A stretch of 64,000 nt of DNA, from contig JAQWFQ010000012.1 of assembly GCA_029238665.1 (NCBI GenBank), positions 1 through 64,000 of the forward strand. Direction: 5' to 3'. Below the pieces are notes generated by a model. The model worked only from the letters and a program-made list of their open reading frames with translations. It was not told where the DNA came from and did no database searches. Made by a program: the position numbers and the translations under genes. Source of the DNA: Crocinitomicaceae bacterium. GTDB lineage: Bacteria > Bacteroidota > Bacteroidia > Flavobacteriales_D > Crocinitomicaceae. Position 1 is the stretch's first letter; every line of letters begins with the position of its first letter. Below are positions 2,935 to 18,944 of the stretch, in pieces.

Positions 2935-3795
2935 ATGAGATTTATCATTCTTGTCGTTCTAGGATTTCTAGTCCAAGATACCATTGCTGCAACACTAGAT
3001 GTCCGTCTAGTAATACAGGCTGGAACCATCAATCTATCCGGAGCAACACTGGATGCTAGAACATTTAGCCAGAACACAACTTTTCAGCCGAATAGCGATA
3101 TACTGATTTGGACAACTAATGATGATGTTAATCTACGAGTAGTTAACTTGGATAGTGATCCGCATGGATTTGAAATAGACGGTTATACTACCTCATTTGG
3201 AACAATAGCTCCTGGAGATTCATCAGAACAAAATATTGTATTATCAAATGCTGGAGTGTTCCGTTATTTTGATAATTTAAACAGCCCTTTTAACGCGTAT
3301 TTGGGCTTATCAGGAGTTATTCATGTAAAAGATGCCTCGGATACGACACCCTATTTTTATTGGGATATTCGGGAGTATCAAGAATTATGGAATGCACAAA
3401 TAATTGGTGGTAGCAATCCTGCACTGAACAGTTATGACCCAGAACAGTTTACCATCAACGGGAATCATTATCCCAATACGGTTACTGATCCACTCGCCAG
3501 AGTTACAGGTAACGTTGGAAATGCATTCAAAGTGGTAGTCGTAAACAACGGTCTCAGCATTCATTCGTTGCATTTTCATGGCTATCACCTAAGCATTGAA
3601 GCGGACTCAAAGTATTCGTACACGCTAGGAAGAAGTAAAGATACCTTCCCCGTTCACCCAGAAGAGCATCTCGTATTAAGTTGTACACCAGACAAGGAAG
3701 GGGAATACCCGGTACATGATCACAATTTAGTTGCAGTAACAGGAGGAGGAGAGTATTCAACAGGCATGCTACTCACTATATTAATTGACCCATGA
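2935..3795 (+). CDS. Multicopper-oxidase-like protein lacking the type 1 copper Cys
   Basis: The 286-residue protein has a signal peptide (to about residue 19) and a degenerate cupredoxin-like first domain (about 50-131, PHGF near 76-79). Its second cupredoxin domain (about 170-286) opens with the oxidase-typical FTINGNHYPN. That domain carries H210-x2-H213-x-H215-G-x-H218 and H261-D-H263 with M278 near the end. In oxidases with type 1 copper in this domain the second motif is HCH; here Asp262 replaces the Cys. The four His of 213/215/261/263 could still supply half a trinuclear cluster. There is no T9SS tail. The stop overlaps the next start (ATGA, 3792-3795), implying coupled translation. 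Confidence 0.75.
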   Translation: MRFIILVVLGFLVQDTIAATLDVRLVIQAGTINLSGATLDARTFSQNTTFQPNSDILIWTTNDDVNLRVVNLDSDPHGFEIDGYTTSFGTIAPGDSSEQNIVLSNAGVFRYFDNLNSPFNAYLGLSGVIHVKDASDTTPYFYWDIREYQELWNAQIIGGSNPALNSYDPEQFTINGNHYPNTVTDPLARVTGNVGNAFKVVVVNNGLSIHSLHFHGYHLSIEADSKYSYTLGRSKDTFPVHPEEHLVLSCTPDKEGEYPVHDHNLVAVTGGGEYSTGMLLTILIDP

Positions 3796-4976
3796 AAAAG
3801 TTTTATATAATTCTCATTCTACTCGTAAGTCATAGCGTTTACGCCCAAATTGATTATAGTAAGTTAATTATAGGTCGAAACAATGGGGCAAAGACATTGC
3901 ATGATGGCAATGTCACTAATACTTTTGGTTTCGCAGAATCTCTTGGTGAACTAATTGACGTACCTGGCCCTACAATCTACCTTAACGAAGGAGATAGTGT
4001 TGAAATTGATTTTTGGAACATGTCTCAAGGTGCACCTCATACGATTCACCTACATGGTTTAGATGTCAATCAAGAGAATGATGGGGTTGGAGCCTTATCA
4101 TTTGACGTCTATCATATGGCACATGGTTTCTATCGATTCAAAGCCCCCCACGCAGGAACGTACTTATATCATTGTCACGTAGTATCAACAATTCATGTGC
4201 AAGCAGGAATGTATGGAGTTCTCGTAGTACGTCCACAGAATGGAGATCCAAATCAAGTTTGGACAGGTGGAGAAGCATATGAGAAAGAGCTTATAATTAC
4301 TAGCTCGGAAATTGACACGAACTGGCATACTGATGCGGTACTAGACCATCCATATGATACCATTAACCCAGTCCCAGTGATGATTCCAGATGATTATATT
4401 CCGCAGTATTTCTTGGTGAGCGGATTATCCGATACACAGCTATCCAATCCAGCGAACTATTATTGGGCCGCAGAGGATGCAAAGGTGTATTTAAGACAAT
4501 CTAATGCGGGATATTATGGAACAAGATACATTTATCCATCCTCAGTATCAGCAAGGACCTTATCGAGTGATGGACGTCCGCTACCTGCAGAGTATGTGAA
4601 TGACACTTTAGAAGTATATCCGGGAGAACGATATGGAACAATGATTCAACTTGGCTCAGACCCATTTTACACCATTGATGTGGAATACTTTGATTTAAAT
4701 ACCAACGAGGTCAAATCGACACAGACATATACAATTAGAACATCCATGGCTGGGTTAGATGAGAACTCCATCTTTAGCTCAACCATTTATCCAGTTCCGT
4801 CGTCAACAGGTGTTTTTTACAGTTCAGAAGAATTTCAATCTGAATACGAAATTTATTCAATTACCGGTAATAAAATCCTTGAAGGTAAAAATATGCGCAT
4901 TGATTTGAGCGATCAACCTAAAGGAATGTACATTTTTCAATATGAAGGGTGGACAAAAAAATTATTGATAAATTAA
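3792..4976 (+). CDS. Multicopper oxidase family protein with type 1 site and T9SS tail
   Basis: The 394-residue protein has a signal peptide (MKKFYIILILLVSHSVYAQ). Domain 1 (about 55-148) has PGPTIYLNEGD, H83-T-I-H86-L-H88-G and Y-H127-C128-H129 followed by H135 and M140. A copper-free middle cupredoxin domain (about 165-310) holds the DG(R)PLP...PGERY pattern of oxidase domain 2. A short T9SS sorting domain begins near 325 (YPVPSSTG). Cys128, H135 and M140, with an upstream His, make a complete type 1 site, unusually placed in domain 1. No copper-binding third domain is present; the overlapping upstream gene encodes one. Likely substrate is Cu(I) or another periplasmic reductant. Confidence 0.8.
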   Translation: MKKFYIILILLVSHSVYAQIDYSKLIIGRNNGAKTLHDGNVTNTFGFAESLGELIDVPGPTIYLNEGDSVEIDFWNMSQGAPHTIHLHGLDVNQENDGVGALSFDVYHMAHGFYRFKAPHAGTYLYHCHVVSTIHVQAGMYGVLVVRPQNGDPNQVWTGGEAYEKELIITSSEIDTNWHTDAVLDHPYDTINPVPVMIPDDYIPQYFLVSGLSDTQLSNPANYYWAAEDAKVYLRQSNAGYYGTRYIYPSSVSARTLSSDGRPLPAEYVNDTLEVYPGERYGTMIQLGSDPFYTIDVEYFDLNTNEVKSTQTYTIRTSMAGLDENSIFSSTIYPVPSSTGVFYSSEEFQSEYEIYSITGNKILEGKNMRIDLSDQPKGMYIFQYEGWTKKLLIN

Positions 4977-5956
4977 TCTCTGAAATTTATCATATAACTA
5001 GTATCGGTTAAAGCGCCTAAAAAATTCTTTAATTGTACAACCTCGTGAGGGTTGAGTTCAAATGGCTTCACAATGTCGCTTTGCAACAAGTGTCCTGCCC
5101 CGCCTTCTGAATAATGCAAAATCACATCATCTAAAGACCCCATTGAGCCATCGTGCATATATGGGGATGTAAGTGCAATATTTCTTAAACTGGGTACTTT
5201 AAACATACCGATATCCAAACTATCATTATGAATTCTAAACCGTCCCTTGTCCTCTCCATAATCAGTATACAATCCATTGTTTTCTGCTTCAAAAGAAGTG
5301 AAATGAGGCGGAGCATGACATTCTGTACAGTATAATTTCTCTGAAAAAAGTTTCCACCCTGCCTGTTCCGACTCAGTTAATGCCAATTGATCCCCAAAAT
5401 AATAGTATCGATCAAAGCGTGAATTATTAGAGATTAGCGAACGTTCAAAAGCTGCAATACTTCGTGTTAACACCCAGGGGTCAAAATCTCTTCCAAAAAC
5501 AGACTTGGCGGCAGCCTGATACTCAGGAACTGCTTTCAGCTTTTCTATTAAAGCATTCATGTCCATGTCCATCTCTACATGTTCCTGAATTGGAACGATA
5601 GCCTGCATCTCTAAAGTTGGAAGATGCGCGTCAAACATTACCGTAGTTAAATATCCAGAATTTAATATCGTTGGAGAATTACGTGCTGTCAACCTACCGC
5701 CAACGCCTTCAGAAACAACTTTCCCATCTGTGAAGGCAAGTTCAGGTAAATGACAGCTCGCGCAAGAAATAGAATTATCTATGGACAAGCGTTCATCAAA
5801 AAAGAGCGCACGACCTAGTTCAATTTTTTCTAATGAACTTTCATTATCTACAGGATGTTGAACCTGTTGAAAAACAGTAACCGTCTTAACAGATCGACAT
5901 TGCCAAAAAAAAAGGGAAGCCAAAATGACTCCCCCTAAATATGATCCAATTTTCAT
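4973..5956 (-). CDS. Di-haem MauG/cytochrome c peroxidase family protein (MbnH-like)
   Basis: The protein carries two c-type haem motifs, CASCH (65-69) and CTECH (210-214), in a CcP/MauG fold of normal length (327 residues from the ATG at 5956). The N-terminus (ASLFFWQC) has a lipoprotein cleavage site, which would anchor it in a membrane. The stretch SPYMHDGS near 265-271 is at the place where MauG-type enzymes have their haem ligand region. I chose the ATG at 5956 over 5974 because the longer form overlaps the upstream stop and puts charged residues before the signal. It follows an MbnP-like gene by four bases; in methanobactin loci MbnH oxidises a Trp of MbnP, so that pairing is the likely job. 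It converges with the oxidase gene, overlapping it by 4 bp. Confidence 0.8.
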   Translation of the reverse strand: MKIGSYLGGVILASLFFWQCRSVKTVTVFQQVQHPVDNESSLEKIELGRALFFDERLSIDNSISCASCHLPELAFTDGKVVSEGVGGRLTARNSPTILNSGYLTTVMFDAHLPTLEMQAIVPIQEHVEMDMDMNALIEKLKAVPEYQAAAKSVFGRDFDPWVLTRSIAAFERSLISNNSRFDRYYYFGDQLALTESEQAGWKLFSEKLYCTECHAPPHFTSFEAENNGLYTDYGEDKGRFRIHNDSLDIGMFKVPSLRNIALTSPYMHDGSMGSLDDVILHYSEGGAGHLLQSDIVKPFELNPHEVVQLKNFLGALTDTSYMINFRD

Positions 5957-5960
5957 TTCT

Positions 5961-6923
5961 CTATTTCGAAACATTAATGGAATTAATCACTCTATTATCA
6001 GAATCGAAAACTGTAAATATGTACTGACCAGTATTTAAACCGCCAATCACATAATTGCCATTAACCATGCTTGACACACCTGAATCAACTACTCTACCTG
6101 ACATGTCCACCAAAGAAAAGTGATCAATACCGGTAAGATCAGTCCACTTTAACTCTAATTGATCAGAATGGCTCACAAAATACAAATCACCATGTTCACT
6201 CATGTCATTCAATGAGGCCGAAGCCCCTTGAGTAAACACTGAACGGATATTTACATTGGTCATGGTAGATGCATTTATTCCAGACGTCCCATGTTGTACT
6301 CCTACAGTACCAGGATTTGCACCATAAATCCACTCATCAATATTACAATTGATGATTAAATCGATGTGAGAAGCATAATTTGTCCCTACTACAGGCAGTT
6401 GAATATTTTTGTAATTGGCATCTCCCAAATCATGCAATTGAAATATTGTATTTGGAGTGTTATCGCCATTCGAATCACCCTTACCGTCACAAAGCAGGAA
6501 CTTATATCCTGAAGTCCACCCCCAATGCATTGATGGAGTTTGGAAACTCAATGGGTGCCCTGCCGGGTATTGTGTAATATCTAAGTGATTAACAGCCTGT
6601 GGTACACCAACTCCAAAATTGATTTGCTCAATGTTTGTTATATCATGCCATCCCATAAATATCTCATGTTCAGCAGCCTTTATTATTATGATTGTGTCAG
6701 ATAAGTCTAAATCCTGTCCACCATCATGAATAATATGAATATTTGACAAGTAATAATTGAAATCTTGAACTTGCATATAAGTCCCATTCAAGTCTTGAAC
6801 GACATCGTTCAACGTATATTCGACCCCACCAACTAATGGAGGGAATTTCAAATAAAGTGCCTTATCCTGAGAATAAGACGAAAAGCTTGCTAGAATAGCA
6901 ACAAGTGTAATAATTTTCTTCAT
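5961..6923 (-). CDS. MbnP-like copper-associated secreted protein with T9SS tail
   Basis: From the ATG at 6923 the protein has 320 residues: signal peptide MKKIITLVAILASFSSYSQ, then an MbnP-type domain with LYLKFPPLVGG, NYYLSNIHI and the hallmark SMHWGWTSGYKFL (131-143, W134 and W136), then a short C-terminal sorting domain ending in NVSK. A longer frame to 6980 exists but adds a non-signal leader. MbnP proteins bind copper through a site that includes a Trp-derived kynurenine made by the MauG-like partner MbnH, encoded immediately downstream here. The T9SS tail suggests surface display or secretion. Confidence 0.75.
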   Translation of the reverse strand: MKKIITLVAILASFSSYSQDKALYLKFPPLVGGVEYTLNDVVQDLNGTYMQVQDFNYYLSNIHIIHDGGQDLDLSDTIIIIKAAEHEIFMGWHDITNIEQINFGVGVPQAVNHLDITQYPAGHPLSFQTPSMHWGWTSGYKFLLCDGKGDSNGDNTPNTIFQLHDLGDANYKNIQLPVVGTNYASHIDLIINCNIDEWIYGANPGTVGVQHGTSGINASTMTNVNIRSVFTQGASASLNDMSEHGDLYFVSHSDQLELKWTDLTGIDHFSLVDMSGRVVDSGVSSMVNGNYVIGGLNTGQYIFTVFDSDNRVINSINVSK

Positions 6924-7094
6924 AGTTCTATAAGTTATAATGCGTGAAACTATTAATACAATTTCAAGAATGGAAATCATCTGACTAAGTCATTTATAAA
7001 GTATTGGAATCCTAGGGATTTTAAGCCAAGACTGGATATTGTCCACATTTTGAATGTCTGATGAAATAACCTTAAATTGTTTAAAAAACAATCT

Positions 7095-8889: not shown

Positions 8890-9228
8890 TTATTCAGGTC
8901 GATCATACTGGCAGCAACCATGTAGTGAATTATACTTTTTATCAGTGGATCTATGAGAATCGGAATCATATCCGACATCCGCTATTAATTGTTTTAACTC
9001 GTCCAATGTAATTTGTTTTGAGTCGTACTTAATTGTCATTTTCTTAGACTCCACATTCCAATCAGCCGAAAACACTCCTTGCTGCTCATTAACCGCACCC
9101 TCAATTTTTCGTTCACACATCCCGCAATTACCATATACTTTAAAGGATGTTTGTTCTCGTCCAGACTGAGCTTTTGAGTTAAATGCCAACATAAACAGCG
9201 CGACAAGCGCCAAAATTGATTTTTTCAT
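8890..9228 (-). CDS. Secreted heavy-metal-associated (HMA) domain protein
   Basis: The 112-residue protein has a signal peptide (MKKSILALVALFMLAFNSKAQ) and one HMA fold with the motif NCGMCERKIE, the GMCxxC-like copper loop seen in periplasmic HMA proteins of this phylum. It ends with a second thiol pair (HGCCQYDRPE). It probably carries copper between envelope proteins or acts as a buffer. It lies 21 bp after the CusB-type gene, in the same transcript. Confidence 0.85.
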   Translation of the reverse strand: MKKSILALVALFMLAFNSKAQSGREQTSFKVYGNCGMCERKIEGAVNEQQGVFSADWNVESKKMTIKYDSKQITLDELKQLIADVGYDSDSHRSTDKKYNSLHGCCQYDRPE

Positions 9229-9249
9229 ACTTTATTTGTTTTTACATTA

Positions 9250-10977
9250 TTAATTAATTTTATCCTCTATAGACCCACATTTGAGCATTTGACTTCCGAA
9301 AAATGGGTTTCGTATTTTATCAGTATCACTCAACCAATAAGCTCCCTTGTTGTCAAATGCCATGGGGCAATATTGAACGAAAGTGGTTAGCTTTTCAAGC
9401 CCAAAAGCTTTCGAAATTTCAATCATATTTCTCGAAAGCGCTCCAAAAATAATACGAGCGTCAGTTATGTCAGTCGTCTCTGTTAACTGCGTAATAGCCG
9501 TCTTAACAGACTTCATCTTCTCCATCCAAAACATATGAGCATTGCCTTGAATCATTGACATGTCAATGGTGGTGAGAGTTTCTAAAAGGTGAGCAGACTC
9601 CCTAATAGCTAGCTTTAAGTCATCATTTACGAATCCATCTTTAACAACATAATACAGGCTTAAAAGCATTTCAAGTTGTTCTTTGAACTTATCCGGAGTA
9701 GCTTCAGTAAAATCGGGTGAAGTTGGTAAAACGGCAGTTGTCGTTTCAAGTAAACTCCTATTCATCATGCTAACTTGATTATTCAATTGTGCAGAAGCAT
9801 CAATTACAAATGCTCCATTGGTGACAACTTCATCACCTTCAATCAATCCTTCAATCAATTCATAGTCCATACCAACAGTAGCCCCAATTTCAACCTCCCT
9901 ATATTCAAAAGATGGCACCTCCAAATCAGGCAATTTTACATATACGACAGATCGTTCTCCAGTCCAGAGAACTGCCGTTTTAGGAACTGTTAAAACCGAA
10001 TATTTATGCATCGGTTCATGTTTTAATTGCCCCGTGATAAACATTTCTGGCTTCAATTTATTTTGGGAATTTATAATCTTTAATCGAACGGCAGCAGTTC
10101 TTGTAGTTGGATCAATAAATGGATCAATGAAAGAGACTTTACCGACGAATTCTTCATTCATTAATGAAGGAGTTGTAAATGTTACTTCACTCCCAATATT
10201 GATTTCCTTTAACTGAGCTTCGTAAACGTCAAATACCGCCCATAACTGATTAAGATTTTGAAGTTCAAAAAGAACACCACCACGAGATAAGTAATCACCA
10301 ACTGAGACCTTTTTAACTTGAATTACACCTGAATAATCAGCGCGAATATCAAAATGCTCTTTAACCCTACCAGATTTAATAATTTCATTAATCTCTTTGT
10401 TCGTTATTTTCCAATAGCGAAGCTTGTTTTTTGCGGCCTCCAACAGTTGAGGATTCTCATTTTTTAATTTTTGTGCAGCAAGCAATTCGTTTTGAGCAGT
10501 TATTAAATCAGGAGAGTAAATAGAAGCTATTTTTTGCCCTTGGTGCACATAATCACCCGTGAAACTAACGTACAGTTTTTCAATTCTGCCTGAGATATGT
10601 GAAACAATACTAGAAGCCACAGTTTCGTCCGGTTCAATCTTGCCTGACAAAACTAAACCACCTTCATGCGAACTACCAACCCCGATTACAGTAGTCTCAA
10701 CGTTAGCAATGCGCATAGCATCCTCGGTCATCGTAAATACAAGTGGATTTCCGTTAGAGGCAGCGTCTGCCAAAATCAGATCCATTCCACAAATGGGACA
10801 ATCTCCTGGCTCTGGTTTACGAATTTGTGGATGCATAGAGCAAGTCCATATTTGTTCTGCCGTACTATGATCAGAGTGATCTTGAGCTCCATCATCAGAT
10901 GATGTTCCAAACAGAAAATAACCTAAAGTCACTCCAAAAACTGTAGCCGCTAGGATTATAAAGATTTTATTTTTCAT
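9250..10977 (-). CDS. cusB: RND efflux periplasmic adaptor, CusB type, with HMBD and DUF3347
   Basis: The 575-residue protein has an N-terminal membrane anchor or signal (about 5-22), then a metal-binding knuckle domain (WTCSMHPQIRKPEPGDCPIC, about 44-63, followed by GMDL). Membrane-fusion-protein barrel and hairpin regions follow (GRIEKLYVSFTGDYVHQGQ; LLAAQKLKNENPQ). A C-terminal DUF3347-like helical domain (about 430-575) ends in YCPMAFDNKGAYWLS...NPFFG. The adaptor would link the CusA-type pump to the TolC-type channel and hand metal to the pump. Its start overlaps the CopA stop by 4 bp, indicating translational coupling. Confidence 0.9.
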   Translation of the reverse strand: MKNKIFIILAATVFGVTLGYFLFGTSSDDGAQDHSDHSTAEQIWTCSMHPQIRKPEPGDCPICGMDLILADAASNGNPLVFTMTEDAMRIANVETTVIGVGSSHEGGLVLSGKIEPDETVASSIVSHISGRIEKLYVSFTGDYVHQGQKIASIYSPDLITAQNELLAAQKLKNENPQLLEAAKNKLRYWKITNKEINEIIKSGRVKEHFDIRADYSGVIQVKKVSVGDYLSRGGVLFELQNLNQLWAVFDVYEAQLKEINIGSEVTFTTPSLMNEEFVGKVSFIDPFIDPTTRTAAVRLKIINSQNKLKPEMFITGQLKHEPMHKYSVLTVPKTAVLWTGERSVVYVKLPDLEVPSFEYREVEIGATVGMDYELIEGLIEGDEVVTNGAFVIDASAQLNNQVSMMNRSLLETTTAVLPTSPDFTEATPDKFKEQLEMLLSLYYVVKDGFVNDDLKLAIRESAHLLETLTTIDMSMIQGNAHMFWMEKMKSVKTAITQLTETTDITDARIIFGALSRNMIEISKAFGLEKLTTFVQYCPMAFDNKGAYWLSDTDKIRNPFFGSQMLKCGSIEDKIN

Positions 10978-13355
10978 TTCAAGTATTTTATATTTATTGA
11001 TCTTAATCTAAGCGCATTTGAAATCACAGAAACCGAACTAAAACTCATAGCTAAAGCTGCAATCATTGGTGAAAGAAGAATCCCAAAAAATGGATAAAGG
11101 ACACCCGCAGCAATAGGGACACCTAAAACATTATAACCCAAGGCAAAAACTAAATTTTGTTTAATGTTTTTTAAGACTTTCTCACTTAGGCTCCTTGCTT
11201 GAACAATGCCAAGCAAGTCACCTTGAACCAGTGTTATTTCAGAGCTTTCAATGGCAACATCTGTACCTGTACCCATCGCAATTCCAATATCTGACAAAGC
11301 TAAAGCTGGTGCATCGTTGATACCATCACCGACCATCGCAACAATCTCATCATTTCTTTGAAGTTCTTTTACATAATTGAGTTTATCCTCAGGTAAGCAG
11401 TCTGAAAAATGACCATCTACTTCAACTTCTTGTGCAACTGCTTCAGCAGTAAACTCATTATCTCCTGTCATCATAACCACTCGCACACCTTTATTTTGAA
11501 GTGTGGAAATAGCTGTCTTACTTGATGGCTTAATCGCATCGTAAATGACGATGCAACCAACCAACTTGTTATTCATAGCTATGAAAGGAACCGTTTTTCC
11601 CTTAGCTTGTTCCTCCTCAGCTTTATTAAATATTGAAGCATCAATTTCAACTTTATGATCTTCCAAAAGTCTAAAATTACCAATAAGCACCGTACAACCA
11701 TCAATAACACCTTTAACCCCTTTACCTGTAATGGATTCAAACCTTCCAACTTTTAGTGACGAATTTCCTTCGGCATGCGCAACTATTGCCTGAGCAAGAG
11801 GATGCTCACTTCGCTTATTAATCGAGGCTGCAATTTCAATTAAGCTTTCATCAGAATATTCTGATGAACCAATAACCTTCTCGACAGATGGTCTTCCTTT
11901 GGTTATTGTACCAGTTTTATCTAAAATGAGTACAGTTACCTTGTTTAATAGCTCCAAGGATTCTGCATCTTTTACCAATACTCCTGATTGAGCACCTTTA
12001 CCGACTCCTACCATAATGGACATCGGTGTAGCTAATCCAAGAGCACAAGGACAGGCTATCACCAAAACTGCTACGGCATTAATAAAACCATATGTCAATT
12101 GCGGTTCAGGTCCAATGAAGAACCATACGAAGAATGTAATTATCGCAACACAGATAACAATCGGAACGAAGTAAGTTGAAATTTTATCGGCTAATCTTTG
12201 AATGGGTGCCTGACTTCTGCTTGCCTCATTTACCATACGAACAATTTGGGAGAGTAAAGTGTCCTCTCCAACTTTTTCCGCCTCCATAATAAAACTACCT
12301 GTGCCATTTATGGTGCCAGCACGAACAGAATCTCCAAGTGTTTTATCCACTGGAATTGGTTCTCCAGAGATCATTGATTCATTAATTGAACCAATTCCCT
12401 CTATAATCCTCCCATCTACCGGAATTTTGGCTCCAGGTTTTATCCGAAGTTTATCAGCTACATTTATTTCATCTATGGAAATTTCACGGTCACCGCTAGC
12501 GTCAACTACAATCGTTGTTCTTGGAGTCAGTTTCAGTAATTCCTTTACAGCGGAGTTAGTTCTGATATGCGCTTTAGTTTCCAATACCTGCCCTAGTAAA
12601 ACCAAAGTCAAGATGACAGTAGCTGCTTCAAAGTAGAGGTGAACAGAACCAGAGTCCCCTTTGAATTGATCAGGGAAAAGGCTGGGAAATAACAAACCAA
12701 CAACACTAACTCCCCATGCCGCACCAGCTCCTATACCTATAAGTGTAAACATATTTAAACTCCGCCTAACTATTGAAGTCCATGCTCTGGTGAAAAACAT
12801 CCATGTTGCATAAAAAACCACCGGAAGAGAAAGGGTAAATTGAATCCAATTACTATATACTTTTGGTAGAAATTGTTCAATTGCGTTTAACTCAAACATT
12901 TCTAGCATCGCTATAAGAAATATTGGAACCGTGAACAAAGTCGCTACGATAAGTTTTTTTAACAAATTAGAGTAATTTGTATATTCCTCTTCCACATTTA
13001 CTTGAATTGGAACTAAGTCCATTCCGCAAACCGGGCAATCCCCAGCTTTTGAATATGTTTTATCACCCTCACAGCGCATTGGGCAATAAAACGTACCAAA
13101 CTGCTGAAGATCATTTTTTTGGTTGTCATTTATTTTCGGCACGGAATGTTCCATTGAATGTAACGCATATTGCGATCCTTTAAGAGGCACATTGAGTCTA
13201 GGTATATCAATTGGCGTATTCAATATTATTTCAACCCATCCTTTTTCAAGATCAACATGAACTCCTTCAACTTCCTTTATAGTTAAGAGAGCCTCCGTCA
13301 CATGATTGGAACAACCCTGACACGACAAACCTGATATTTGATATCTATGTTTCAT
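10974..13355 (-). CDS. copA: Copper-translocating P1B-type ATPase with HMA and HMBD domains
   Basis: The 793-residue ATPase begins with an HMA domain (CQGC, 12-15) and a heavy-metal knuckle domain (YCPMRC at 90-95, CPVCGMDL at 107-114). It then has eight predicted membrane segments, the transport motif ACPCALGLATP (CPC 435-437), the phosphorylation site DKTGT (479-483), HPLA, MTGDN and GDGINDAPAL. These define a P1B-1 Cu+ exporter of the inner membrane. It follows the AraC-HMA regulator by 52 bp and overlaps the adaptor gene. The extra HMBD between the HMA and the first helix is common in Bacteroidota. Confidence 0.95.
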   Translation of the reverse strand: MKHRYQISGLSCQGCSNHVTEALLTIKEVEGVHVDLEKGWVEIILNTPIDIPRLNVPLKGSQYALHSMEHSVPKINDNQKNDLQQFGTFYCPMRCEGDKTYSKAGDCPVCGMDLVPIQVNVEEEYTNYSNLLKKLIVATLFTVPIFLIAMLEMFELNAIEQFLPKVYSNWIQFTLSLPVVFYATWMFFTRAWTSIVRRSLNMFTLIGIGAGAAWGVSVVGLLFPSLFPDQFKGDSGSVHLYFEAATVILTLVLLGQVLETKAHIRTNSAVKELLKLTPRTTIVVDASGDREISIDEINVADKLRIKPGAKIPVDGRIIEGIGSINESMISGEPIPVDKTLGDSVRAGTINGTGSFIMEAEKVGEDTLLSQIVRMVNEASRSQAPIQRLADKISTYFVPIVICVAIITFFVWFFIGPEPQLTYGFINAVAVLVIACPCALGLATPMSIMVGVGKGAQSGVLVKDAESLELLNKVTVLILDKTGTITKGRPSVEKVIGSSEYSDESLIEIAASINKRSEHPLAQAIVAHAEGNSSLKVGRFESITGKGVKGVIDGCTVLIGNFRLLEDHKVEIDASIFNKAEEEQAKGKTVPFIAMNNKLVGCIVIYDAIKPSSKTAISTLQNKGVRVVMMTGDNEFTAEAVAQEVEVDGHFSDCLPEDKLNYVKELQRNDEIVAMVGDGINDAPALALSDIGIAMGTGTDVAIESSEITLVQGDLLGIVQARSLSEKVLKNIKQNLVFALGYNVLGVPIAAGVLYPFFGILLSPMIAALAMSFSSVSVISNALRLRSINIKYLK

Positions 13356-13407
13356 TTTTATTAGCCAAATTCGTTGCTTTGGCCTAAACGCTATTGTACA
13401 ATTCTGT

Positions 13408-13965
13408 TTAAATGTTATCTAATTTTTCCCTGGATGCAATGCCCCTAAACTCCGTCGGAGAAAATCCTGTTACTTGCTTAAACTGTTTTGATAAATGTTG
13501 AGGACTACTATAATTCAACTCGTAGGCAATCTCGCTCATCGTCAATTCGTTATAGGTCATTAACTCCTTAGCGCGCTCAATTTTCTGTAAAATGACAAAC
13601 CGTTCAATACTTTTTCCTTCAACCTGAGAGAACAAACGACTGATCTTCGAATAGTTAATTTTTAAATCATGGCTCAAGATTTCCTGAAAGCTTTGAACTG
13701 GTGTCCTATTTGTATAGCCGCGTACCTCACTTACTACAGTAAACTTAACCCCCTCAACAATTTGTTGTTCTTTATCCTTTAGAATTTCAAACCCTTCGAC
13801 TTTCAATAACTCGTTCAACTTTTCCACCTTGCCCGCATTCATATCCTGAGATAAGTGAACACATCCAAGCTCCACTTTTATAAAGAGTATATCCTTGGTA
13901 TTCAATAAATCTCTCACAACTTTGATGCAACGATCACAGACCATGTTTTTTATTATCAATTTCAT
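13408..13965 (-). CDS. AraC-family regulator with N-terminal heavy-metal domain
   Basis: This 185-residue protein starts with a HMA-like segment (MKLIIKNMVCDRCIKVVRDL, Cys10 and Cys13) of about 70 residues. It ends in an AraC HTH pair (about 95-180, with ELTMSEIAYELNYSSPQHLS and FKQVTGFSPTEFR). The fusion suggests a cytoplasmic sensor in which copper binding to the CxxC loop alters DNA binding by the AraC domain. Its place between the TolC gene (3-bp gap) and copA (52-bp gap) suggests it regulates this cluster, probably its own. No operator could be assigned. Confidence 0.85.
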   Translation of the reverse strand: MKLIIKNMVCDRCIKVVRDLLNTKDILFIKVELGCVHLSQDMNAGKVEKLNELLKVEGFEILKDKEQQIVEGVKFTVVSEVRGYTNRTPVQSFQEILSHDLKINYSKISRLFSQVEGKSIERFVILQKIERAKELMTYNELTMSEIAYELNYSSPQHLSKQFKQVTGFSPTEFRGIASREKLDNI

Positions 13966-13968
13966 GGC

Positions 13969-15201
13969 TTAGTAGTTTATAAGTTTTTTCATATTTGAAA
14001 TAGCGATATACTCTTTTTTACGTGTCTTACTCAACTTCAATTTATACATCAATAATTGATTTTGAACTTGTAATAATTCGTCAAATTTTCGCCCCTGTGT
14101 GCTGTATTCTGTATAGAGTAACTCTAGAATTTGTTCCGTTGTCTTAATTTGCTCTGTAAAATGTTCTCTGTTCACTTGCTCTACATGGTAATTTGATAAA
14201 TACCCCGCTAATTGTCCCATAACACGTTGCTCTAGACTTTCCCTATCGAAAGCTAATGCAGATTGTTTGAGCCTCTCTTCTTCATGAATTGCCCGTATAG
14301 GTTTGCGATAAAGTGGAATACTTAGCATCAATTTAGGAATGAAGATATCCCTCCCGTTGAACTGCGGATCCATATCAGTTCGTTCACCAACTATTGCATA
14401 ATCTAGTCCAGCACCTATCATGGGAGCCCCCATTTTTTTATTCGCCAGTTGTCTAGTTTTCGAAGCCGAAATTTCGGCATCGATTAATCTCAGTAATGGA
14501 TAGTGCTCTTTAAGTTTTTTATGTTGTTCTTCCAAGTCAATCTCAAGAACTTCAACATTCAAGTCTTGAACTTCAATAGGTGTGTTCCATGGAGCCAATG
14601 TGAGCGCGTTAATTACTGCAAATTGTTTTTCCCTAAGCGGAACAATCTCCGCCAATTGCTGTTGTAATTCATCCTGACTCAAGCGAACGCGAAGAACATT
14701 GATCATGCTTCCATTTCCGCTTTCTTGCTTTGCCAGCGCAGACTGTTCAATTGCTTTGAATTGATCTAGCATGGAACTTATAATCCCTTCTCTTTCTTTT
14801 AATTCAATCAGCGCATAATAAGCCAGTTCAATTTTATTGAAAAGCACCAATCGCTTGGCAGATATACGCTCATATTTGGCTTTTGACATGGCAATTATCA
14901 CGTCTCCTTTTGATTTACGCGTTCCAAACCAAGGGAACATTTGACTAGCGCTTACCATCATAATTTGCGGTCCCAATCTTGTTTCTGGCGGTAAAACAGG
15001 TATTCCAACACCGAATTGCATGTTGGGTAACGCACGTACCTGATTCACTTTCATTAATTCTGCATCATACTCAGTTTGTAAAGCTTTTAACTCAGGACTA
15101 TTTTCAACCACCATTTGTAGAAGAGAATCCAAAGACTGCCCATAAGATGAAAAAGCTCCAATGCACATTATGAAGTAAAGTAAAACCAATTTTCGTATCA
15201 T
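13969..15201 (-). CDS. TolC-family outer-membrane efflux protein, CusC role
   Basis: The 410-residue protein has a signal peptide (to about residue 21, SSYGQ) and long heptad-rich helices with the two-fold repeat of outer-membrane efflux proteins (SLDSLLQMVVENSPELKALQ near the start; QIKTTEQILELLYTEYSTQG near the end). It would form the exit duct for the CusAB-type pump. Its start overlaps the end of the cusA-type gene by 4 bp. Confidence 0.88.
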   Translation of the reverse strand: MIRKLVLLYFIMCIGAFSSYGQSLDSLLQMVVENSPELKALQTEYDAELMKVNQVRALPNMQFGVGIPVLPPETRLGPQIMMVSASQMFPWFGTRKSKGDVIIAMSKAKYERISAKRLVLFNKIELAYYALIELKEREGIISSMLDQFKAIEQSALAKQESGNGSMINVLRVRLSQDELQQQLAEIVPLREKQFAVINALTLAPWNTPIEVQDLNVEVLEIDLEEQHKKLKEHYPLLRLIDAEISASKTRQLANKKMGAPMIGAGLDYAIVGERTDMDPQFNGRDIFIPKLMLSIPLYRKPIRAIHEEERLKQSALAFDRESLEQRVMGQLAGYLSNYHVEQVNREHFTEQIKTTEQILELLYTEYSTQGRKFDELLQVQNQLLMYKLKLSKTRKKEYIAISNMKKLINY

Positions 15202-18200
15202 GATTCAGTCGTTTTTATGCTCGTATTTGATCCAGAGTCATTTTTCATTTTCCGAGAGTATTTAAATTGTAATTCTCTCCATAAGCAATAAAGGACGGGA
15301 ACAGTAAACATTGTCACAGTATTCAGAACCATTCCACCAAATGATGGAATTGCCATGGGGAGCATAATGCCAGCGCCTTTTCCAGTTGAGGTTAAAACAG
15401 GAAGTAAAGCCAGAATTGTAGTAGCCGTGGTCATCATCGCAGGTTTAACTCTCCGTAATCCTCCTTCAATAACTGCATCATGGATACCTTCTATACTATC
15501 AGGGTGATTTTTCTGAAAACTATCTTTTAGAAAACTCGCTACTAGAACACCATCATCGGTTGCAATACCAAATAGTGCCAGAAATCCAACCCAAACAGCA
15601 ACGCTCAAATTTATATTCCCCATCTGAAACAAATCGCGCATGTTCTGTCCGAAAAATTCAAAATTCATGAACCAATCTTGGCCGTACAACCAGATCATGA
15701 TAAATCCACCTGAGAAAGCCACAAAAACACCGGAAAAAACAAAGAGAGCAGTTAATGTAGATTTAAAATGAAAGTATAGTATTAGGAATATGAGTGTCAA
15801 GGCGATTGGAACCACAATCCATAATCGATCTGTAGCTCTCACTTGTTGCTCATAGTTACCTGCAAATTCATGAAAGACCCCTTTAGGAGTAACTAGTTGC
15901 CCCTGTTCAATCTTATCATCCAAATATACCTGGGCATTATTCACGACATCAATGTCAGAATAGACTTTTCTCTCTATGTTTTCAGGATCATCTATATCCA
16001 TTTTATCGAATAAGACATATCCAATTAAAAATCCATCTTCGCTTTTAATAGATTGTGGCCCTTGCTCATATCGAATATCAACCAAATCACCTAGCGGAAT
16101 TTGACTTCCGTTATTGGCCGTGATATAAATTGACTTAATTTTGTCCGGATCATTTCTTAACTCGATAGGATATCTAATTCGCATATTATAGCGTTCACGT
16201 CCTTCCACAGAAGAAGTCATAATCATGCCTCCTACAGCAGTTTGTATCTGATTTTGAACCTGAATCAAGCTAAGTCCATGTCTGGAAATAGCATCACGGT
16301 TTACATCAATTAACAAATAAGGCTTCCCAACAATTCTATCCGCGAAAACTGCGGAAGTTTTAACTCCTTCCACCTCCTTTAGGAACATCTCCACCTGTAA
16401 ACCAAACGCCTCAATTTCTTCTAGGCTATTTCCCTTTATCTTGATCCCCATAGGTGCCCGCATTCCGGTTTGAAGCATCACGAGCCGAGTTTCAATCGGT
16501 TGTAGTTTAGGAGCAGAAGTTAGCCCAGGAATTTTCGTAGCACTAATAATTTCATTCCAAATATCATCAGGTGAATGAATATGATCGCGCCATTGTCGGA
16601 AGTACTTCCCATTGTCATCTTCAATTAACTGACCCAAAGAATCTCGCACGTATTCATCATTGTCATCAACCATAAATCGCATTCTATGTCCATCCTCATC
16701 CACAACATATTCAGTCTTATAGGCTATTATATTTTCGTACATCGACATTGGTGCAGGGTCTAAAGAACTTTCAACACGTCCTGCTTTCCCAACAACCATT
16801 TCTACCTCGGGAATTGCACTTACCGACATGTCTAATAATCTCAGATTGGCTTCGTTCATCTCCATCCCAGCATGAGGCATAGAAGTCGGCATCAATAAAA
16901 ATGACCCTTCGTTAAGCGTAGGCATGAATTCAGGTGATCGAGTTATCAAAATGCTATAGCCGAGTATTACAATACCAACCACAAATGCGAGAAACGCATA
17001 TTTGATCCGCAATAGGAGGCGTAATATCCGTTCGTAAAAATGAATAACTGTATAAAAGAATCCAATCAAGCCACCAATGATAATCACCACAAAAAAGAAA
17101 TTAGTGAGCAAGCTTTTCGAAACACCAAGAGGCATCCATATTTTAGCAAGTAACCAAGCTACCACAAGCGCATATGCAATGTTCTTAACATACTGAAACT
17201 TGTTTTTCCATTTTTCAGATTTCTCCGATTCTGCGTACGTAGAAATTGCACCACCAACTCCAATGATAATTCCGAAAAATCCAAAAAATGTATAAGGTGT
17301 AAAGAGAAGAATTAACGCCAGAAATATCAATGAAAAATTCGAGATATAAGACGATATTTTCCCTTTACTTTTCAACTTGAATAGTTGCTCAGCAAGTGGA
17401 GGGATAACAGTAATTGCCAGAACAATAGAAGCCAATAGAGCGAACGACTTAGTAAATGCAAGTGGCCTAAATAATTTCCCTTCGGCAGCCTCCATTGTGA
17501 AGACTGGTAAAAAGCTAATAATTGTTGTGGCAACAGCTGTCACGACAGCAGAAGCTACTTCTATAGTGGCTAGGTAAATAGTTGTTTTAAGTGATTGCTC
17601 TGGAGGAGCAATTTTCATCTGACTAACCATACTTTCCGTTAACACAATACCCATATCGACCATAGTACCGACCGCTATGGCTATTCCCGAAAGCGCCACG
17701 ATGTTGGCATCAATACCAAAATAGCGCATGGCGATAAAGCACATTAGAACTGCTACAGGTAATGAAGCACTGATGAGTAAAGAAGATTTTAAATGCAACA
17801 GCATAAGAATTACCACAATTATGGTAATTAATATTTCAAGAGTTAGAGCCTCATTTAGTGTTCCCAAGGTTTCATTGATAAGTACCGAGCGGTCATAAAA
17901 GGGAACAACCGTTAAGGTAGAAACAGTTCCATCCTTAAGAGTTTTCGTAGGCATTCCAACTTGAATCTCTTCAATTTGTTGCTTGACATTATTTATCACT
18001 TCAAGTGGGTTAGCTCCATAACGTGCAACTACCACACCACCAACTGCTGGTGCTCCAGACTTATCGAGAACCCCTCTTCTTGTGGCAGGCCCTAAATGTA
18101 CGCGTGCAACATCACTAATTCTGATAGGCGTATTGTCAACCACTTTAAGAACACCTTTTTCAATATCCTCCACAGTTTCTACGTACCCTAACCCACGAAC

Positions 18201-18944
18201 AAAATACTCAACGAGATTAATCTCCAATGTTTGCGCACCGATGTCGAGATTACTTTCCTTTACCGCCTTCATTACATCCTGTAAACCGATGCCATAACTG
18301 CGCATTTTTTCTGGGTCAACATCAATCTGATACTCCTTAACAAACCCACCTATAGAAGCTACTTCGGAAACACCCGAAGCAGACTGGAGTCCGTACTTTA
18401 CATAAAAGTCCTGAGTGGAACGTAAATCTTGGAGATCCCAACCTCCGGTAGTATTACCTTGATCATCCCTTCCTTCCAAAGTGTACCAGAAAACCTGGCC
18501 TAAAGCAGTAGCATCAGGTCCAAGTGTCGGCTGAACATCATTTGGTAAAGTGTTGGAGGGAAGAGAATTTAGCTTTTCAAGAATTCTACTTCTACTCCAA
18601 TAAAACTCAACATCTTCTTCAAATATTAGATAAATACTCGAAAATCCAAACATCGAATTACTCCTCACGCTTTTTACGCCTGGAATTCCTAATAGAGCAG
18701 AAGTTAATGGAGCTGTTATTTGATCTTCCACGTCTTGAGGAGAGCGTCCCATCCATTCTGTAAATACAATTTGTTGGTTTTCACCAACATCAGGAATTGC
18801 ATCAACAGCAACAGGATCTCTAGGTAGAATATCAGCACCATAATCAAATGGAGCAGTGACTAAGCCCCACAGGACGAACACACCCAGTAAGAGCCAAGCA
18901 ACCAATTTGTTGTCAAGAAAAAATTTTACAATCGCCTTAATCAT
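15198..18944 (-). CDS. cusA: Heavy-metal RND efflux permease, CusA type
   Basis: The 1248-residue inner-membrane pump has an RND layout: N-terminal helix, two large periplasmic loops (about 45-335 and about 715-1010), and two six-helix bundles including GIAIAVGTMVDMGIV and FGIATDDGVLV with the acidic proton-relay residues. It is about 200 residues longer than E. coli CusA. The extra length includes additional hydrophobic segments (about 545-655) and a charged insert around residues 755-790, a form I recall as usual in Bacteroidota. With the adaptor and TolC genes it would expel Cu(I)/Ag(I) across the envelope. It is preceded by the thioredoxin-like gene. Confidence 0.93.
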   Translation of the reverse strand: MIKAIVKFFLDNKLVAWLLLGVFVLWGLVTAPFDYGADILPRDPVAVDAIPDVGENQQIVFTEWMGRSPQDVEDQITAPLTSALLGIPGVKSVRSNSMFGFSSIYLIFEEDVEFYWSRSRILEKLNSLPSNTLPNDVQPTLGPDATALGQVFWYTLEGRDDQGNTTGGWDLQDLRSTQDFYVKYGLQSASGVSEVASIGGFVKEYQIDVDPEKMRSYGIGLQDVMKAVKESNLDIGAQTLEINLVEYFVRGLGYVETVEDIEKGVLKVVDNTPIRISDVARVHLGPATRRGVLDKSGAPAVGGVVVARYGANPLEVINNVKQQIEEIQVGMPTKTLKDGTVSTLTVVPFYDRSVLINETLGTLNEALTLEILITIIVVILMLLHLKSSLLISASLPVAVLMCFIAMRYFGIDANIVALSGIAIAVGTMVDMGIVLTESMVSQMKIAPPEQSLKTTIYLATIEVASAVVTAVATTIISFLPVFTMEAAEGKLFRPLAFTKSFALLASIVLAITVIPPLAEQLFKLKSKGKISSYISNFSLIFLALILLFTPYTFFGFFGIIIGVGGAISTYAESEKSEKWKNKFQYVKNIAYALVVAWLLAKIWMPLGVSKSLLTNFFFVVIIIGGLIGFFYTVIHFYERILRLLLRIKYAFLAFVVGIVILGYSILITRSPEFMPTLNEGSFLLMPTSMPHAGMEMNEANLRLLDMSVSAIPEVEMVVGKAGRVESSLDPAPMSMYENIIAYKTEYVVDEDGHRMRFMVDDNDEYVRDSLGQLIEDDNGKYFRQWRDHIHSPDDIWNEIISATKIPGLTSAPKLQPIETRLVMLQTGMRAPMGIKIKGNSLEEIEAFGLQVEMFLKEVEGVKTSAVFADRIVGKPYLLIDVNRDAISRHGLSLIQVQNQIQTAVGGMIMTSSVEGRERYNMRIRYPIELRNDPDKIKSIYITANNGSQIPLGDLVDIRYEQGPQSIKSEDGFLIGYVLFDKMDIDDPENIERKVYSDIDVVNNAQVYLDDKIEQGQLVTPKGVFHEFAGNYEQQVRATDRLWIVVPIALTLIFLILYFHFKSTLTALFVFSGVFVAFSGGFIMIWLYGQDWFMNFEFFGQNMRDLFQMGNINLSVAVWVGFLALFGIATDDGVLVASFLKDSFQKNHPDSIEGIHDAVIEGGLRRVKPAMMTTATTILALLPVLTSTGKGAGIMLPMAIPSFGGMVLNTVTMFTVPVLYCLWRELQFKYSRKMKNDSGSNTSIKTTES

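Follow-up and report, generated by a model that had tools for sequence, protein, structure and literature searches.

Two overlapping genes, here termed P1 and P2, in a 64,000-nucleotide window of Crocinitomicaceae bacterium contig JAQWFQ010000012.1 (assembly GCA_029238665.1) very probably encode two subunits that together make up a single secreted multicopper oxidase, which, judged from conserved residues and a structure prediction, would share a predicted trinuclear copper cluster and, judged from the surrounding genes, may act on Cu(I). The genes meet in the tetranucleotide ATGA (3792-3795), where the stop codon of P1 overlaps the start codon of P2 on the forward strand; these two overlapping frames, the overlap itself and all residues named in an earlier sequence-only reading of the window were found at the positions given there. 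That reading regarded each polypeptide as half of one protein, but each is instead a whole two-domain protomer with one degenerate cupredoxin domain (marked here by a prime), with D1' preceding D2 in P1 and D1 preceding D2' in P2. P1, which matches PF07731 at 45 bits (cut-off 20.4), carries the motifs HSLHFHGYH and HDH in its last domain; the first domain of P2 carries HTIHLHG and HCHVVSTIHVQAGM, and its second domain is without ligands. From these motifs, P2 D1 would provide a type 1 (T1) copper site and four histidines of the trinuclear cluster, and P1 D2 the remaining four cluster histidines (Table 1), with a complete T1 set present neither in P1 nor in P2 D2' in an alignment of 98 domains. 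Both N termini were assigned as Sec signal peptides by eye, that of P1 being short and hydrophobic and P2 having a hydrophobic stretch of its own. Annotated singly, either protein would pass for a degenerate or incomplete oxidase.

The division of one oxidase site between two polypeptides, already proposed from the window alone, is well supported by the constancy of both histidine sets in relatives and by a joint fold whose packing fits. Relatives were drawn from the order and family, the class and the phylum, and from a scan of named genomes (80 of the 155 relatives kept); exclusion of sequences below 190 bits (P1) or 250 bits (P2) left 107 unique pairs. All eight cluster histidines are constant in 107 of 107, in both proteins, and a check for P1 homologues without cluster histidines found none among them. 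The named-genome scan was picked by P1 motifs, which biases its P1 residue counts; in the 47 unique pairs that came by similarity alone, neither the four cluster histidines of P1 nor any of the eight T1 and cluster ligands of P2 is ever missing (47 of 47 in each case). The T1 positions of P1, by contrast, drift: in these 47 pairs position 210 is H in 43, Q in three and S in one, and position 262 is D in 30, N in 15 and A in two (D 90, N 15 and A 2 over the 107 unique pairs). Constant cluster histidines next to drifting T1 positions indicate that selection maintains in P1 D2 the residues required for a shared cluster and is relaxed at those that only a T1 site would require. This pattern also bears on an alternative in which the two are separate proteins, P2 a blue-copper carrier or scavenger using its T1 site only and P1 a copper-binding or copper-delivering chaperone, with no trinuclear cluster. 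An HMA protein and MbnP encoded nearby would suit such functions, as would the lack of a coevolution signal at the expected interface (below), but we judge this improbable: a T1-only protein need not retain H86, H88, H127 and H129, all of which are invariant, P1 retains exactly the cluster histidines while its T1 positions vary, and the joint fold is predicted with confidence.

By sequence, the best solved relatives of both proteins are 2zwn and 3g5w (E 5e-5 and 2e-4 for P1, mainly through domain 2; 2e-16 and 4e-17 for P2, through domain 1), whose titles in the PDB describe a two-domain type laccase and a multicopper oxidase, and which we take to be the metagenomic mgLAC and mcoN of Nitrosomonas europaea, respectively. 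In the 98-domain alignment, the four cluster histidines of P2 fall on the domain 1 set of mgLAC and mcoN and the four of P1 on their domain 2 set; HTIHWHG is replaced by HGFEIDG and HCH by FDN in P1 D1', and in P2 D2' TRYIYPSS and FDL stand where HxxHxHG and HDH would be. According to the portion of PMC13151041 available, the T1 site lies in the C-terminal domain of type B two-domain oxidases and in the N-terminal domain of type C, a definition by which the pair, with T1 in the N-terminal domain of P2, is type C-like. The likeness to type B seen in the sequence-only reading is thus not borne out, and a type B assignment was rejected: T1 sits in P2 domain 1, and the Cys position of P1 D2 is D, N or A. 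The type B enzymes SLAC and CjMCO do have two cupredoxin domains per chain, as the pair does, but with T1 in the C-terminal domain. The Asp at the T1 Cys position that the same reading singled out is indeed present (D262), but is not unusual; HDH also stands in domain 2 of single-chain type C oxidases (mcoN, mgLAC, the protein of locus L026 and that of Deinococcus), so the Asp of P1 is not a recently lost Cys.

With type C oxidases (mcoN, mgLAC, the single chains of loci L026 and L146, and Deinococcus QLG12987.1) the pair has in common the chain fold, a T1 domain 1, an HDH domain 2 and the cluster histidines. Two cupredoxin domains of matching fold are predicted in each chain (in the P1 model and in the P2 part of a joint model made from locus L089), and T1 lies only in an N-terminal domain when the pair is taken as a whole. 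However, one gene carries both halves of the site in type C oxidases, whereas here the halves lie in two genes, the domain 1 half only in P2 and the domain 2 half only in P1, each with one degenerate domain; P2 additionally has a type IX secretion system (T9SS) tail. Because the halves of the cluster site sit on different genes, the pair counts, by its sequence features, as a heteromeric form of type C two-domain oxidases and not as a strict member. Neither of two curated models was matched above its cut-off, namely NirK TIGR02376 (P2 67.6 bits, cut-off 296.3) and CopA TIGR01480 (P2 58.7 and P1 32 bits, cut-off 478.95). The weak TIGR02376 match and the alignment of P2 D1 with nitrite reductases would be in keeping with a P2 homotrimer that works alone, in the manner of copper nitrite reductases or two-domain oxidases; since P2 D2' is without any domain 2 ligand and P2 is nearly always accompanied by P1, this is very unlikely.

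To our knowledge, multicopper oxidases take every ligand from one gene, whether as a single chain or as a homo-oligomer, and one gene supplies all ligands in those compared here, unlike P1 and P2. The copper-resistance oxidases CopA/PcoA and CueO, with which the pair has a probable role and copper-efflux neighbours in common, are three-domain single chains. The Mnx complex of Bacillus sp. PL-12 (9bxa) and the heterodimeric Pleurotus laccase POXA3 are, like the pair, oxidases with different subunits; in both, as far as is known, all copper-oxidase sites lie on one subunit. An oxidase with such a division of its site between two genes was not found among the open-access papers that literature searches listed, subscription papers and preprints lying outside these searches.

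The split pair is real, far beyond chance. A survey of its conservation, as had been proposed with the sequence-only reading, found both genes in 106 of 110 loci (some of them the same DNA twice), in 105 as separate genes and always on the same strand, so that the pair noticed in the window, correctly seen but incompletely described, is a recurrent gene pair and not a local oddity. The four loci without the pair comprise a decayed copy (L025), a single-chain oxidase (L026), a different copper oxidase (L027) and a contig end (L030). The gap between P1 and P2, measurable in 78 of the 80 contig-scan loci, is -4 in 40, -1 in 19 and +1 to +29 in 19. Searches with P1, which scored no more than a few top candidates in each genome, detected it in 105 of 399 sampled genomes of the order (a count that includes partial and decayed copies), in 11 of 295 of the class and in one of 395 of the phylum, the window's own genome. 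With P2 as query, 86 matches were obtained in 82 of 299 genomes, with P1 directly upstream in 83; of the three others, two lie at contig ends and one in genome G571. Both genes are present in a further 39 of 39 loci (some repeating earlier loci) and in 18 of 20 more stretches, the other two holding a broken P1 without P2 (L142) and a single-chain oxidase (L146). The single-chain type C protein of L026, used as query, matched in two of 249 order genomes at E 1e-40, one of them its own, which suggests that close single-chain forms of this type are rare in the order, although more distant forms would escape such a search. The window's genome itself holds two further P1/P2 pairs.

In one locus alone, L089, do P1 and P2 stand in one frame. 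This record would favour a reading in which one oxidase gene has been split, either by an error of sequencing or by a recent fission, but the shared frame appears to come from a G-run near the end of P1, whose last strand is lost, and is probably an assembly error; a natural gene fusion in L089 was rejected for the same reason. Each gene, moreover, has its own start and signal-like N terminus, the pair exists in 107 unique forms, and the order D1'-D2-D1-D2' is unlike that of one broken two-domain gene. The survey of relatives rules the broken-gene reading out, leaving it next to no probability.

The whole pair is decayed, with many stops, in L240 (G049:C3:213000-220500), which shows that both genes can be lost together. 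The presence of the pair in metagenome bins labelled Krumholzibacteriota (L107) and Ignavibacteriae (L091) suggests transfer or mis-binning. A plasmid of Halorussus aquaticus (L194) encodes a single-chain two-domain oxidase with HCH in both domains, which is type A-like.

The model of P1 from the window, built with an 80-row alignment, has a predicted local distance difference test (pLDDT) score of 94.4 and a predicted template-modelling score (pTM) of 0.91; over residues 19-286 its best matches by Z score are 2zwn (25.7; 253 residues, 2.8 Å) and 3g5w (25.6), in searches that list only the nearest solved chains. A joint fold was made from the 583-residue L089 chain with an alignment of 40 rows (one fused, 21 of 79 P1 and 18 of 77 P2), chosen by a greedy trial in which a row was added only if both halves stayed placed; four such trials in random order gave 40, 15, 29 and 39 rows, and the largest was used. 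Larger sets were unsuitable, MAFFT misplacing P1 rows and, in a 143-row alignment, putting them on the P2 half. The joint fold has a pLDDT of 88.7 and a pTM of 0.89, with only the junction residues 247-283 below 50. Its P2 part matches 3g5w best (261 residues, 1.9 Å, Z 29.9), and the whole model (1-583) superposes on residues 2-698 of human ceruloplasmin (4enz; 504 residues, 4.2 Å, Z 25.7), at rank 26 of the VIA list, the rows above it, led by 3g5w, matching only the P2 part. In Foldseek, ceruloplasmin and factors V and VIII stand on top with one Mnx complex among them (ranks 1-24, template-modelling (TM) score 0.57-0.68 by query); 9bxa chain A is at rank 18 with a TM score of 0.65.

Residues 2-698 of ceruloplasmin we take to be domains 1-4, in which case the contact of P1 D2 with P2 D1 falls on the 2/3 interface. 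Whether the two histidine sets lie far apart, which the sequence-only reading had named as a check, can be read from this placement at the level of domains: the ligand domains are put together at a 2/3-type interface. The pair would thus resemble ceruloplasmin in that its cupredoxin domains pack one after another in a ring-like way, as seen in one model and for four of the six domains, but it differs in having two genes with two domains each instead of six domains in one chain, in a predicted cluster at a 2/3-type interface of two chains and four domains instead of between domains 1 and 6, and in a T1 site at an odd-numbered domain instead of at domains 2, 4 or 6. In the part of PMC3600357 available, the cluster interfaces of the presumed six-domain ancestor are given as 1/6, 2/3 and 4/5.

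In the mechanism that we propose, P2 D1 and P1 D2 would dock with their ligand-bearing faces opposed, enclosing a single trinuclear copper cluster; interfaces of this kind bear the clusters of two-domain trimers and of the ceruloplasmin ring. A substrate would pass single electrons to the T1 copper of P2, from which they would run via the His-Cys-His strand to the shared cluster, where O2 would be reduced to water. Cu(I) would be oxidized in this way outside the cytoplasm, beside copper efflux and MbnP/MbnH, by subunits that would both be exported by Sec, P1 crossing the outer membrane bound to P2 as the bearer of the T9SS tail.

Several results weigh against a two-subunit oxidase of this kind. 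In a mean-field coevolution analysis of 108 rows (the 107 unique pairs with the window repeated; effective number 95), pairs linking P1 D2 with P2 D1 were not in excess, at 0.39-0.86 of expectation, which in so shallow an alignment counts weakly; the excess lies instead at pairs involving P1 D1' (1.05-1.87 of expectation), and inter-protein pairs make up only seven of the top 100. The fold of P1 is matched almost as well, to within 1 Z, by nitrite reductases and by further two-domain oxidases, so that the match is unspecific; in Foldseek, 9cck comes first and 3g5w third. The joint fold is a single one, run without a control on the apparently frameshifted L089 chain and 40 selected rows. In genome G571, P2 stands without an upstream P1, and no match to P1 was listed for that genome; G688 has an additional broken P1 without P2. 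The Cu(I) role is proposed from gene neighbourhood. Two kinds of protomer cannot follow each other in strict alternation around a three-membered ring, which leaves the form of the full assembly in doubt. Neither H218 of P1, invariant yet no predicted ligand, nor H77 (3163-3165), at the T1 position of P1 D1' and kept in 103 of 108 rows, is explained by the shared cluster; N71 is kept in all 80 rows, and D1' otherwise has no remaining ligands besides H77.

The same heteromer might be assembled differently, as a ring of two P1 and one P2 or of one P1 and two P2, or with a third partner completing a six-domain ring, an arrangement that is compatible with two subunits sharing a cluster and that we regard as possible but doubtful. 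Two-domain oxidases form homotrimers according to the accessible part of PMC13151041, and the four-domain model spans only residues 2-698 of the ceruloplasmin ring. A candidate for the third partner is P0, whose gene directly precedes that of P1 in 58 of 80 loci and which may be a component or partner of the pair; its only Pfam match above cut-off is the T9SS tail, however, and no cupredoxin family was found in it by Pfam. A second T9SS protein related to P0, with the same conserved cysteine pair (C76, C81) and W71, is encoded at 1152-1847 on the reverse strand.

As to the origin of the pair, a FastTree phylogeny of 98 domains from 22 of 80 pairs (the window, seven chosen and 14 random) and five single-chain oxidases separates a D1 type (single-chain domain 1, P2 D1 and P1 D1') from a D2 type (single-chain domain 2, P1 D2 and P2 D2') with support of 0.98, and joins P1 D2 with P2 D2' (0.90). 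The single-chain D2 domains do not group together as a clade, and P1 D1' sits on a long branch; this tree does not settle in what order the duplications occurred. The sequences fit a duplication of a two-domain gene whose copies then lost opposite sites. Tentatively, and as a view that may well prove wrong in some of its parts, we propose that P1 and P2 make up an obligate two-gene oxidase, in which duplication of a homo-oligomeric ancestor and reciprocal loss have spread one site over paralogous subunits, that this oxidase is a living intermediate, and that its subunits are exported together through the T9SS. If so, the pair would link homotrimers, which have three equal clusters, to ceruloplasmin-like proteins, which have a single one. 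Complementary halves kept in two genes are a testable case of a symmetric oligomer becoming an asymmetric heteromer, a step of the kind expected en route to ceruloplasmin-like proteins.

That only the second protein has a T9SS tail, as first read from the window, was upheld by TIGR04183, which is found in P2 and not listed for P1. A comparison with relatives (TIGR04183, E 0.01) covered 78 P2 proteins, from the window and from 77 of the 80 scan loci (without L089 and two cut copies), and listed the tail for 77 of them; for the 80 P1 proteins covered, from the window and from 79 loci (again without L089), it listed none. As far as the accessible text of PMC9251779 goes, the T9SS moves folded proteins, and substrates need a folded C-terminal domain; in that of PMC6247017, a tail-less protein was found outside cells, with vesicles proposed as the route. 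With a tail on P2 alone and Sec export of both proteins, P1 would most likely cross the outer membrane bound to P2; perhaps, then, P1 is exported in this way, the alternatives being retention in the periplasm or vesicles. No direct precedent for T9SS export of a tail-less partner was found among the papers that literature searches listed or in the accessible parts of PMC9251779 and PMC10994853. If joint export is correct, the T9SS exports folded multi-subunit metalloenzymes, a tail-less subunit clinging to its tagged partner, and the pair offers a natural assay for such carriage.

Table 1. Features of the P1/P2 gene pair and of neighbouring genes in the window
Feature	Position	Strand	Details
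P1	2935..3795	+	286 amino acids; degenerate cupredoxin D1' residues 20-136, cupredoxin D2 residues 166-286
P2	3792..4976	+	394 amino acids; D1 residues 20-152, degenerate D2' residues 153-318, T9SS tail
P1 H213, H215, predicted cluster ligands	3571..3579	+	aligned with mgLAC/mcoN domain 2; H in 107/107 unique pairs
P1 H261-D262-H263	3715..3723	+	both His predicted cluster ligands, 107/107; D262 at T1 Cys position
P2 H83 (T1), H86 and H88 (cluster)	4038..4055	+	each H in 107/107
P2 H127 (cluster), C128 (T1), H129 (cluster), H135 (T1), M140 (T1)	4170..4211	+	invariant in 107/107
P2 T9SS type A sorting tail	4785..4973	+	residues 332-392; TIGR04183 28.1 bits, cut-off 23
P0, 229-amino-acid T9SS protein, next gene upstream of P1	2239..2928	+	T9SS tail; conserved W71, C76, C81
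MbnH-like di-haem enzyme, convergent with the pair	4973..5974	-	PF03150 173.6 bits, cut-off 25.6
MbnP-family copper protein	5961..6980	-	PF20243 90.4 bits, cut-off 27
Copper/heavy-metal efflux island	8890..18944	-	components named in the text

The genes around the pair point to a place in copper handling (Table 1). The MbnH-like gene scores 245.9 bits against TIGR04039, below the cut-off of 362.85, and lies next to a gene for an MbnP-family protein; the available part of PMC3621798 (2013) describes the MbnP/MbnH gene pair as conserved far outside methanobactin producers, with an unclear role. Of 83 loci, many with flanks cut by contig ends, 22 contain a gene that falls into one cluster with the MbnH-like gene of the window, and 19 contain one that does so with its MbnP gene. 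The efflux island encodes an HMA protein, a CusB-type fusion protein with HMBD, a P-type ATPase with HMA and HMBD, an AraC-type regulator, an OEP outer-membrane channel and an RND pump. Inferred from this neighbourhood, Cu(I) oxidation is probably the most economical role for the pair.

Within the efflux island, which looks complete, a 185-amino-acid protein (13408-13965) combines an HMA-like N terminus, recognized by eye, with an AraC-type DNA-binding domain. A small secreted protein rich in Cys and His, encoded at 4439-4915 of locus L045 and without a Pfam match at E 0.001, occurs near the pair in 10 of 83 loci.

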